Below, piece after piece: positions 22,788 to 26,215 of a stretch of DNA of 64,000 nt (its first letter is position 1; every line of letters starts with the position of its first letter). Location: the NCBI RefSeq assembly GCF_000024405.1, contig NC_013517.1:2604001-2668000 (forward strand), written 5' to 3'. The stretch is from Sebaldella termitidis ATCC 33386 (lineage in GTDB: Bacteria > Fusobacteriota > Fusobacteriia > Fusobacteriales > Leptotrichiaceae). A model generated the notes under the pieces. The model was not told the DNA's origin. It saw only the letters and a program-made list of their open reading frames with translations, and ran no database searches. Position numbers and translations under genes: made by a program.

Positions 22788-22808
22788 AAACTTTTATAAA
22801 TTATAAAA

Positions 22809-22831
22809 AGCCCTAAAAAATTTTTAGGGCT
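22809..22831. terminator. Bidirectional terminator
   Basis: An 11-bp stem AGCCCTAAAAA / TTTTTAGGGCT with a single-base loop between two converging genes (stops at 22787 and 22850). T-rich flanks on both strands suit termination in either direction. Confidence 0.8.
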
Positions 22832-22849
22832 CTTCTTATCTAAAAAAAA

Positions 22850-23629
22850 CTATTTCAAATTATATTTTTTTAGTAATTCGTCATATTTTCCGTTTTCTTT
22901 TAATTTTATTATAGTTTCATTTACCTGCTTAATTAATTCAGGATTTTTCCCTTTATCAAAAGCTATAGCTGTTCCGCCGTTATCTGTCATATCTTTTGTA
23001 GCAAAAATCTCCAATTCAGGATTTTCACTTACATAAGCACTTGCTACTACGTCTTCAAGAACAAGGGCATCAAGATTCTTATTTTTTAATTCAAGGATTA
23101 ATGATGTAATAGCCTCGTTAACAACTGTTTTTTCACTTATTTTCTTAGCTTCCTGTTCCTGAATAGTCCCCAGCTGTGCTCCGAGTCTTTTATCTTTCAT
23201 GTCATCAATGCTGTTTAATGATGTATCACCTTTTAATCTCACATATGCAAATTTTGAGATATAATATTCATCACTAAAATCCACAGCTGCTTTTCTTTCC
23301 TCAGTAACGCTCATACCTGCTATTATTGCATCTATCTCGTTATTTTTTAATGCAGGAATAAGTCCGTCAAATGCCATTGTTTTCCATTCGATTTTATAAC
23401 CAAGCTCTTCACCGATCATATTCATAAGGTCTATATCAAAACCTTCTGTCTTCCCGCCTTCACCTACATATTCAAACGGCTTAAATTCCGGATTAGTACC
23501 TACACGCAGTACCTTTTCCTGTCCTTCTGCCGGTTTTTCTCCGCCGTCTGCAGCAGCCGTCTCATTCTTTGAACCGCAGCTTAATACAAATAAAAGCATA
23601 AGACTTAATAAAAATAATGTTTTTTTCAT
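22850..23629 (-). CDS. Amino-acid ABC transporter, substrate-binding lipoprotein
   Basis: A 259-aa member of bacterial solute-binding family 3 (polar amino acids). The lipobox LLFVLSC is followed by an acidic linker (ETAAADGGEKPAEGQ). The binding domain opens LRVGTNPEFKPFEYVGEGGK and carries the family motif GFDIDLMNMIGEELGY, then AIIAGMSVTEERKAAVDFSD. It is the last gene of a permease-ATPase-binding protein operon. The exact amino acid (arginine, glutamine, cystine and others) cannot be told from these motifs. Confidence 0.92.
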   Translation of the reverse strand: MKKTLFLLSLMLLFVLSCGSKNETAAADGGEKPAEGQEKVLRVGTNPEFKPFEYVGEGGKTEGFDIDLMNMIGEELGYKIEWKTMAFDGLIPALKNNEIDAIIAGMSVTEERKAAVDFSDEYYISKFAYVRLKGDTSLNSIDDMKDKRLGAQLGTIQEQEAKKISEKTVVNEAITSLILELKNKNLDALVLEDVVASAYVSENPELEIFATKDMTDNGGTAIAFDKGKNPELIKQVNETIIKLKENGKYDELLKKYNLK

Positions 23630-23664: not shown

Positions 23665-24393
23665 TTAATGATTTAATACTTTGTTCAAAAATTCTTTTGT
23701 TCTTTCATGCCCTGGATTTGTAAATATTTTTTCTGGATCCTCGTCTTCTACGATTCTTCCTTCATCCATAAATATTACTCTTTTTGCCACATTTCTGGCA
23801 AATCCCATCTCATGTGTTACCAAAAGCATTGTCATTCCTTCATGAGCAAGTTTTTTTATTACATCCAGAACCTCTCCTATCATCTCGGGATCCAGTGCAG
23901 ATGTCGGCTCATCAAATAATATTACTTCCGGATTCATAGCAAGTGCCCTTGCTATTGCCACCCTTTGTTTCTGTCCTCCTGACAGCGTATTTGGATAAAC
24001 ATCCTTTTTCTCCTCAAGCCCTACTTTTCTTAGAAGATCAATTGCCGTTTTCTCAGCTTCAGCTTTTGACATTTTTTTCAGTTTTACAGGTGCCATAGTA
24101 AGATTCTGCAATACCGTTTTATGAGGAAAAAGATTAAAATGCTGAAAAACCATTCCTACTTTCTGTCTTATTTTATTTACATTTGTTTTTGAAGAAAGTA
24201 TATTTTCTCCTTCAATCAGTATTTCACCCTTACTTGGTGTTTCCAGGAGATTTATGCATCTTAGAAGAGTAGATTTCCCGCTTCCGCTGGGACCTATAAT
24301 GGCCACTACCTCTCCTTTATTTATTGTTTTATTTATATCCTTCAATACTTCCAGATTTCCAAAATTTTTATACAAACCTTTTACTTCTATCAT
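23665..24393 (-). CDS. Amino-acid ABC transporter, ATP-binding protein (GlnQ/HisP type)
   Basis: A 242-aa ATPase that energises the transporter. Visible motifs are Walker [11 protein letters not shown]-loop [14 protein letters not shown], signature [15 protein letters not shown], Walker [15 protein letters not shown], and H-loop LLVTHEMGF. The ATG at 24393 is chosen (GGAAG nine bases before) and overlaps the permease stop as ATGA, so the two are coupled. Confidence 0.95.
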
Positions 24394-25109
24394 TTTTTCA
24401 ACTTCCTTTCCAGAGTCCCTGCAAAAATTGAAAATAATTTTACACATATGTAATATATTATTCCTGCGAGAATATACGGTTCAGGTTTATAATATTTACT
24501 CTGCAGAGCCTTACTTGCAAAAGTCAGATCATACATATTTATAAGTACCAGTCCTACCACTGATGTTTCCTTAAATAAAGCTATAAATTCGTTTATTAAT
24601 GCCGGAAGTATATTCCTTACTGCCTGCGGGATTATTATCTCAAACATCGACATGGAATAAGGCATGCCCAAAGCTCTTGCAGCTTCCATCTGTCCCTTGT
24701 CCAGACTCTCTATTCCTGATCTGATTATCTCCGAAACATATGCCGAGCTGTTTATACCAAAACCTATTACTGCAATCAAAAATTTTGACTGAACAACTCC
24801 GCTCAAAATAAAATAAGCAAATATCAAAAGCTGGATTGTTACTGGTATTCCACGCAGTATATCCACATATTCTTCTATAATCGTATCAACAACAGGATTA
24901 TTCAGATACCTCAAAAATGCAAGCAGAGTTCCCAGTACTACTCCGAGAAGTACCCCGCAAAAAGTTATCTGTACAGTTACCCATAATCCCTGAAGCAAAA
25001 AGATGCAGTCGCTTTTTTTCAGGAAGCTCAAATCAATTGTTCTAAATATCAATACTAATAATATTATAAATATCAGCATTTTTATCAAAATTCTGGTTTT
25101 ACCAGTCAT
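24390..25109 (-). CDS. Amino-acid ABC transporter permease (HisM/GlnP type)
   Basis: A 239-aa inner-membrane permease with about five helices. The coupling EAA loop ([20 protein letters not shown], then [18 protein letters not shown]) touches the ATPase. It is the first gene of the operon, read from a promoter and an attenuated leader upstream (25110-25297), with AGGAGAGG as ribosome site. One permease gene is present, so a homodimer is likely. Confidence 0.93.
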
Positions 25110-25136
25110 GTGCTACCCTCTCCTATATATAATTTT

Positions 25137-25163
25137 ATAAAAAAAGACTGATTTAACCAGTCT
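25137..25163 (-). terminator. Leader terminator (attenuator) before the ABC transporter operon
   Basis: On the minus strand AGACTG pairs with CAGTCT around a seven-base loop (25163-25145), followed by a run of seven T. It ends about 30 bp before the permease start, so it would stop transcription before the genes unless countered. Confidence 0.7.
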
Positions 25164-25165
25164 CA

Positions 25166-25262
25166 ATGAGTAAACTAAACTTAGTTTACAATATGCTCAT
25201 AGGAATTTTCCCGAAAAAAAATACCTAATCTTGGATACTGGCAAAAGCCTTTTACTTTTATT
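25166..25262 (-). promoter_or_regulatory. Candidate cis-regulatory RNA leader
   Basis: About 95 nt between the probable start site and the attenuator. It includes GTAAACT / AGTTTAC inside an outer pair ATGAG (25200-25196) / CTCAT (25170-25166), abutting the terminator, and a small GGC-TTTT-GCC hairpin further upstream. No known riboswitch consensus (lysine, glycine, SAM, T-box, glutamine) is recognisable. A regulatory role is inferred from the position before the terminator. Confidence 0.45.
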
Positions 25263-25267
25263 CCATA

Positions 25268-25297
25268 AATATAACATATTGTTATCTATCTTGTCAA
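25268..25297 (-). promoter_or_regulatory. Promoter of the ABC transporter operon
   Basis: TTGACA (25297-25292), then 17 or 18 bp to TTATAT or TATATT (25274-25268). It places the start near 25262, giving a leader of about 150 nt. Confidence 0.65.
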
Positions 25298-25410
25298 TAA
25301 ATAAGTCGAATGATATATATTTTGAATATTTCCAGAATTTTTCTATATGTATTATCCGAAAATCTGTCAATTACTGTAATTCTGCAAAAATAACGACTTA
25401 TTTTTATACA

Positions 25411-25453
25411 AAAAAATACTTTTTCAGTATGGAATATTTTCCGTGAAAAAGTA
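25411..25453 (-). terminator. Terminator of the lipase-like gene
   Basis: A 10-bp stem TACTTTTTCA / TGAAAAAGTA (25417-25426 with 25444-25453) plus an inner GGAA/TTCC pair, followed on the minus strand by TTTTTT. It lies 19 bp past the stop at 25472. Confidence 0.8.
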
Positions 25454-25471
25454 CTTTCAGTATTTATATTA

Positions 25472-26215
25472 TTAATTTTTCAGATAATTTTCTATTTCAT
25501 TAAATGTTCTTTCATCTTTAAGTATTGATGTATGAGATGCTTTGTCTACGACTTTGTAAGCACATGAATCCAGCTTTGAACCGTCAAGCGGTACCATTCC
25601 GTCATCCTTTCCCGGTATTATGACAGAATACAGCGGATTATTTGATTTATTTCCAATCAATACATAGCATGAATAATCAGGATTCCCCAGTTTATTCACA
25701 AAACTGTCTTCTTTTATACTGAACTGAAGAACTGCCTCTCCCAGCGGATCTTTCAGCATCTTTGATATAAAATGATCTGCAAGTGCACTTCCATGACTCG
25801 GCGGCGAAATAAATACCACTTTCCCGAGATTATCCATATTATTATTTTTCAAATAATATCTTAATATTCCACTTCCCATGGAGTGTACCACGAAATGAAC
25901 CTTTTTATCATTATCCAGCCCGTCTATAACAGGTTTTATATATTTTTCCGATATCATTTCCACACTGTCACTGTTTGTCGGGTATTGTATACTTATTATG
26001 TTATAATTTTTATTTCCAAGCATTTCTGCTATCGGCTTCATATCCTTTTCTGTTCCGTATATTCCGTGAAACAGTACTATATACTCCATATTTTCTGTTT
26101 CATCATATTTGTTTATCTTATAATCATGATGCAAAGCAGTCTTTAAGACCGCACATCCCGTAAACGTTAATATAATCCCTGCTAAAAGACATAAATACAA
26201 ACTTCTCTTCTTCAT
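25472..26215 (-). CDS. Lipase-like alpha/beta hydrolase, lipoprotein
   Basis: A 247-aa predicted lipoprotein (signal ending LTFTGC). The core is an alpha/beta hydrolase: IVLFHGIYGTEKDMKPIAEM carries the oxyanion region, the nucleophile elbow is VHSMGSG, and likely partners are Asp in GKDDGMVPLDGS and His in DKASHTSILKD. The layout matches the PGAP1-like/triacylglycerol lipase group, acting on esters or lipids in the cell envelope. The substrate is unknown. It stands alone between a terminator and the DUF1385 operon. Confidence 0.85.
   Translation of the reverse strand: MKKRSLYLCLLAGIILTFTGCAVLKTALHHDYKINKYDETENMEYIVLFHGIYGTEKDMKPIAEMLGNKNYNIISIQYPTNSDSVEMISEKYIKPVIDGLDNDKKVHFVVHSMGSGILRYYLKNNNMDNLGKVVFISPPSHGSALADHFISKMLKDPLGEAVLQFSIKEDSFVNKLGNPDYSCYVLIGNKSNNPLYSVIIPGKDDGMVPLDGSKLDSCAYKVVDKASHTSILKDERTFNEIENYLKN

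Follow-up and report, generated by a model that had tools for sequence, protein, structure and literature searches.

A putative riboswitch-like attenuator for arginine supply in Sebaldella and other Fusobacteriota

The leader of an amino-acid ABC transporter operon in Sebaldella termitidis ATCC 33386 carries a structured RNA element that recurs ahead of transport and arginine genes across the Fusobacteriota, and it is best read as a new attenuator, riboswitch-like in kind, that responds to the supply of arginine. Conserved structure, overlap of the closing helix P1 with the terminator, association with arginine genes and independence from leader peptides are all established computationally, and we are highly confident that the element is a genuine arginine-linked attenuator. 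We infer the direction of the response, the identity of the ligand, and that a protein would not be needed. The window analysed here is a stretch of 64,000 nucleotides (contig NC_013517.1, positions 2,604,001 to 2,668,000) from a genome of 4.49 Mb, and all coordinates below refer to it.

The initial annotation had described TTGACA with a -10 box, about 150 nt of leader, a hairpin beside a seven-T terminator, and then a ribosome site followed by a permease. All of these are present and, the strand having been left unstated, all prove to lie on the reverse strand, as do the other features listed here. The sigma-70-type promoter (25268-25297) reads TTGACA-N18-TATATT (TTGACA at 25297-25292, TATATT at 25273-25268, spacer 18), with a TG preceding the -10; it matches 11 of 12 consensus positions, is the best promoter-like site of the region, and is kept in four Sebaldella genomes and in a Leptotrichiaceae bacterium MAG (G004). 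Within the leader (about 25261-25110, ~150 nt), the 5' strand of P1, GCCAGUAUC (25234-25242), is the left arm of the antiterminator and pairs with 25164-25156. It is followed by the 5' half of the core, AAGAU (25228-25232), the P2 hairpin UAGG...CCUA (25200-25227), the 3' half of the core, UGAGCAUA (25192-25199), and the P3 hairpin GUAAACUA-AGUU-UAGUUUAC (25170-25189), which has an outer AUGA/UCAU pairing and is the hairpin seen initially. The 3' strand of P1, GAGACUGGU (25156-25164), is a switch strand held in common with the 5' arm of the intrinsic terminator GAGACUGGUUAAAUCAGUCUU (25139-25164, hairpin 25164-25144), which carries seven U. The ribosome binding site, AGGAGAGGG (25116-25124), is assigned by sequence. 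The operon encodes a polar amino-acid ABC transporter permease (24390-25109, ATG at 25109; TIGR01726 above cut-off), a GlnQ/TcyN/HisP-like ABC transporter ATP-binding protein (23665-24447) and a substrate-binding lipoprotein of the Lys/Arg/Orn-type family (22850-23629), which scores under the subfamily cut-off and has Gln- and Arg-type binding proteins as its closest PDB relatives; a terminator at 22805-22835 closes these three genes. The region holds four terminator-like sites against 1.2 expected, and the leader folds more stably than its shuffles (z = -2.4, 2/200). Upstream, a long hairpin, rich in AT and accompanied by a run of T (25406-25463, reverse strand), probably terminates the gene at 25472-26215, and a weak Rfam miRNA match at the same place (E 0.012) was set aside as chance.

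Leader identity is 80-97% in three congeners (G024, G025, G026), where promoter, leader and terminator are conserved ahead of the orthologous permease each time, and the core is conserved before the orthologous permease in G004, a different genus. Since the leader is conserved in the congeners and its core in G004, always ahead of this permease, it is not a chance arrangement. Folded without the 3' arm of the terminator, it forms a three-way junction of P1, P2 and P3, and a covariance model built from the four Sebaldella sequences puts G004 into the same architecture. Alignment of related leaders in search of covarying stems, as the initial annotation had proposed, did uncover them: among five distinct sequences from Sebaldella and G004, 9 of 27 pairs are changed on both sides, compared with 2.9 in shuffles (0/500), in an alignment that favours the structure because G004, misaligned by MAFFT, was aligned through the covariance model. 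P3, present in both the Sebaldella and G004 versions, is 100% paired, and both partners have changed in 4 of its 8 pairs. The strand common to P1 and the terminator reads GCUGG in G004 instead of ACUGG, which turns an A-U pair of the terminator into G-C and the antiterminator pair into U-G; on our reading, this change would preserve both states. Leptotrichia-like genomes (g6) have a permease of ~50% identity, but their leader is short and different. In such genomes (L008-L021) the orthologous permease is preceded by a strong Shine-Dalgarno sequence, AAGGAGG, then a perfect small hairpin, TATGAAC..GTTCATA, with the likely start codon ~30-40 nt past it; the arrangement is conserved across species and perhaps represents translational control.

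Across the phylum, we found 52 copies of the core in 36 of 98 Fusobacteriota genomes, covering nine genera. First models, built from Sebaldella and G004, found the remaining copies weakly (E 0.2-0.6), and model R2, which includes G004, gave weak Fusobacteriaceae matches, one upstream of an ABC permease and one of an APC permease, that share this core. The total comprises 46 matches to R3 (E up to 0.05), a core model with 17 training sequences that was trained on copies it later finds, and six copies taken from leaders of the orthologous permease. Support independent of this training comes from a pattern search, from the gene contexts and from new members with P2 pairs outside the training set. 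The pattern AAGATTAG-N4..34-CTATGAKYATA has 20 matches in 19 of the 98 genomes, against none for the reversed pattern, and all 20 combine a complementary P2 with a position ahead of transport or arginine genes. The core precedes an ABC permease in 36 copies, argC (with argJ next) in six, an NhaC-family antiporter in five, argH in three (one of them a remnant), and a Lys/Arg/Orn-family binding protein and an APC permease in one each; the argC, argJ and argH genes next to the core score above curated cut-offs. Several matches were rejected: those of R1 or R2 at L083, L086, L088, L138 and L143 and of R3 at L337, L338 and L341 fall within coding DNA, are without the core or resemble chance matches; viral-contig matches to a similar pattern lack P2 and are chance or mostly one phage coding sequence; and in g17 (G070) a sequence resembling the core coincides with a promoter and is likewise chance. 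The core was not found in the leaders of trpB genes in Fusobacteriota, and one Acetoanaerobium (Clostridia) record gave no R3 match.

The layout of the element is a helix P1 enclosing 5'-AAGAU-P2-UGAGYAUA-3', in which AAGAU is invariant in all 42 aligned copies, UGAGYAUA is almost invariant, and few bases are conserved outside the loop. Covariation extends to this wider family: all seven P2 pairs covary over 41 distinct copies, with 67 double-changed cells, while shuffles gave 17 (0/500) and slid partners at most 13. Reading frames differ between Sebaldella and G004, and P2 measures 16-28 nt and more from AAG to UAUGAG, lengths that do not divide by three; the core is therefore noncoding. The loop can be written as G15.A90 (42/42), A16.G89 (41/42) and U17.U88 (42/42) with a 3-nt A-rich bulge. 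The sequence pattern of tandem G.A pairs plus a 3-nt bulge, found in 41-42 of 42 copies, suggests a resemblance to a K-turn. The Fusobacteriaceae form contains an apparent, imperfect C-helix, UUUGY/GYAUA (over all aligned copies, G10-Y92 in 36/42, U9-A93 in 34/42, Y11-G91 in 25/42), and the -1 pair is A.G in 16/42 copies. Sebaldella and G004 have no UUUGY strand and no C-helix, P1 adjoins the loop directly and an extra P3 is present, so that beyond the invariant loop the two forms are not alike.

The core of most Fusobacteriaceae has a Shine-Dalgarno sequence and a short ORF ahead of it, encoding peptides such as MMFRISRTRRQIKNQYKSF, MLKLRRRRIRRSRTKNNNSYLIQLA and MIFNLRRQRNRKF. About 118 of the 587 residues in 34 leader peptides are arginine (20%, compared with 4.1% in the proteins of the window), encoded by AGG (87), AGA (29) and CGT (2), and the stop codon falls near the 5' strand of P1 in many copies. 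Arginine-rich leader peptides are the classical evidence that arginine acts through ribosome-mediated attenuation. Membership of the element in an arginine regulon, and its combination elsewhere with arginine leader peptides, go beyond what the initial annotation had proposed. The two parts are separable. Both peptide and core are present in g15, g16, g19, g24 and g25. F. vincentii (L342), g12, g13 and g14, together with two genomes of g22 and one each of g17 and g21, have a leader peptide but no detected core; less certain among these are the peptides of g21 and g22 and the assignment of G034 in g12. The core stands without a leader peptide in four Sebaldella genomes, G004, G077 (argH) and G088 (APC permease), and the window has no leader-peptide ORF between promoter and core. 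In g18 (G072, L370; G073, L374) the order is promoter, core, terminator T1, arginine leader ORF, T2 and gene, so that a single ABC operon is preceded by two successive attenuators, each with its own terminator. Taken together, the peptide-only, tandem and core-only loci identify the core as a separable module of an arginine attenuator, and the tandem and stand-alone forms make it likely, in our judgement with a reasonable though not high degree of confidence, that the core is an independent sensor or a binding site for one. A Leptotrichia-like locus (L135) has a Trp leader peptide, MIRQTWTWWKKLNTI, and a terminator ~150-400 nt upstream of trpB, a classical trp attenuator without the core; leader-peptide attenuation in Fusobacteriota therefore does not need the core.

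The initial view of an attenuated leader ahead of an amino-acid ABC transporter is supported. Of 42 copies, 35 have a P1 that overlaps the 5' arm of the terminator by at least 4 bp, where shuffled upstream DNA would lead one to expect 15.3, a count in which the copies are related and do not amount to 42 independent tests. For the window, the two folded states are near-isoenergetic in silico (-26.9 and -26.0 kcal/mol, a difference of 0.9), and in simulated RNA growth P1 forms at nt 107 and is displaced by the terminator at nt 117. Judged by sequence and folding alone, the element has two hallmarks of a riboswitch, a conserved aptamer-like core with covarying stems and a helix mutually exclusive with a terminator. 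We propose a model in which the leader acts as a transcription attenuator of an uptake operon for arginine or arginine-type substrates. In the nascent RNA, P1 would close around the core; since P1 borrows the 5' arm of the terminator, its presence would mean readthrough and its loss termination. The core would serve as the sensor, its state deciding whether P1 survives until the terminator is complete, and a factor acting on it between nt 107 and nt 117 could set the outcome. The favoured input would be direct, riboswitch-like binding of arginine or of a signal from the arginine pathway, and the genes would presumably remain on when arginine is short. We regard this explanation as a whole, an arginine attenuator with the core as a riboswitch-like sensor, as evenly poised between right and wrong.

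Among the readings of the core we favour a riboswitch-like sensor, and a direct metabolite riboswitch in particular is conceivable, at somewhat below an even chance. Several observations weigh against the favoured explanation. By the geometry of the leader P1 corresponds to the ON state, and an arginine aptamer that simply represses would therefore need to destabilise P1 or adopt another fold; the 13 conserved, K-turn-like loop bases are few for an amino-acid aptamer; and the Sebaldella form, with its adjacent P1, its P3 and no UUUGY, is unlike the Fusobacteriaceae form, with the first models reaching the other copies only weakly. The same loop could instead be a K-turn-like site for an RNA-binding protein, of the L7Ae/L30e type or another putative regulator, whose binding would either stabilise P1 or block it, depending on how much arginine is available. 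The G.A, A.G and U.U pairs, the 3-nt A-rich bulge, the C-helix of Fusobacteriaceae and the scarcity of conserved bases beyond the loop would all fit such a site, and the conserved internal loop within the antiterminator hairpin may recall protein-bound antiterminators by analogy; the A.G at the -1 pair in 16/42 copies and the missing C-helix in Sebaldella and G004 fit it poorly, and we consider this reading unlikely, though less so than those that follow.

A purely structural role, in which the peptides sense arginine through the ribosome, the core is merely a bend, pause or stabiliser, and the Sebaldella core is a relic with constant partial readthrough, appears improbable to us. The 34 peptides with their AGG and AGA codons, the stop codons near P1 and the peptides without a core in F. 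vincentii, g12, g13 and g14 agree with it, but the core is kept without any peptide in Sebaldella, G004, G077 and G088, the g18 core is followed by a terminator of its own before the leader peptide begins, and a relic would not retain invariant loop bases and compensated stems across two genera. The initial suggestion that the sensor may be unusual rather than a recognised class stood up to the covariance-model scan: since no known class emerged from it, the sensor is indeed unusual. Rfam 15 gave no gathering-threshold match in the whole window and nothing relevant by E-value, and in the relatives' leaders the element was unmatched at threshold, with only tRNA and purine matches, elsewhere. 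A diverged T-box, lysine riboswitch or Rfam trpB motif, for which the similar gene setting and weak trpB matches in two copies could speak, is accordingly very improbable and is refuted at Rfam 15 thresholds: those two copies score 18.1 and 18.5 bits (E 1.7-3.6) against a gathering threshold of 59 for RF04312 (ggcAcAGA...UCUgUgccGGCuaU), whose consensus lacks the core, and T-box and lysine models were unmatched in every scan. Least credible of all is a chance hairpin and terminator without regulation, such as the 3' end of an upstream transcript; the region is AT-rich with many weak hairpins, but conservation and covariation refute this reading, and gene association and the element's own promoter also oppose it.

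Fourteen copies lie at arginine biosynthesis or NhaC(-argH) loci. An NhaC-family antiporter stands under the arginine core at L264, L324, L325 and L331 and directly 5' of argH in the three loci read through (L324, L325, L331); this neighbourhood suggests that the antiporter, from a family otherwise classed with Na+/H+ antiporters, moves arginine or a precursor. At L265 (G053) the argH after the core is apparently truncated to a remnant, with leader and core intact. For Sebaldella itself, the arginine link would follow from homology of the core and the type of operon, not from a biosynthesis gene, and its relatives point to arginine as the probable substrate of the transporter. The arginine repressor ArgR (TIGR01529) was above cut-off in 0 of 98 Fusobacteriota genomes and in 7 of 14 control genomes; matches of any kind occurred in only two of the 98, none of them Sebaldella. 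The sole strong ArgR homologues among the 98 belong to a deep-branching genome (G097; L390, L392), as two adjacent copies within one open frame. Because nearly all Fusobacteriota lack ArgR, how this phylum, which includes human pathogens and gut symbionts, regulates arginine was an open question, and an RNA switch may sense arginine supply directly here. That a natural bacterial riboswitch for arginine or a metabolite of its pathway replaces ArgR in Fusobacteriota, and that arginine leader peptides are combined with it, stacked with it or swapped for it, is a tentative proposal about which we are more doubtful than hopeful; if true, it would mean RNA attenuators with two separable sensors for one amino acid. 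With peptide only, core only, both fused and both in tandem on the same transporter operon, the phylum offers a natural comparison that makes the takeover of ribosome-mediated sensing by an RNA core directly testable.

A bacterial arginine riboswitch is found neither in Rfam 15 nor in the freely accessible literature searched, and full-text searches of the same literature returned nothing relevant on Fusobacterium, whether on a riboswitch for arginine or on leader peptides rich in it. Of published descriptions, the trpB motif (SRC-39-1) comes nearest; it is reported from Firmicutes and Fusobacteria in the 5' UTR of amino-acid ABC transporters as an antiterminator (PMC11109978), in a paper whose main text does not mention arginine. 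Our element shares with RF04312 an occurrence in Fusobacteria, the 5' UTR position and a hairpin with a terminator, but the motif consensus, ggcAcAGAu...aUCUgUgccGGCuaU, has no AAAGAU or UGAGYAUA and aligns with the hairpin and terminator only; together with its score, this sets the element apart from that motif. T-boxes likewise give readthrough when an amino acid is short, through an antiterminator overlapping a terminator, whereas the element is only about 100 nt long and lacks both the conserved T-box sequence and the UGGN bulge: no T-box match was found in Rfam, and UGG is at no constant place in the antiterminators. Lysine and glycine riboswitches also place a leader aptamer and terminator before amino-acid transport or synthesis genes, but have no sequence or covariance-model similarity to it. 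With the K-turn the element shares an asymmetric loop, tandem G.A/A.G pairs and a 3-nt A-rich bulge; it differs in the U.U beside the G.A pairs, the imperfect C-helix and the other closing in Sebaldella. Finally, the trp, his and thr attenuators resemble it in setting a terminator against an antiterminator and, in most Fusobacteriaceae copies, in a peptide rich in codons for the regulated amino acid, arginine; in the window, by contrast, there is no leader peptide, and, unlike in those classical systems, the antiterminator itself bears a conserved, covarying core.
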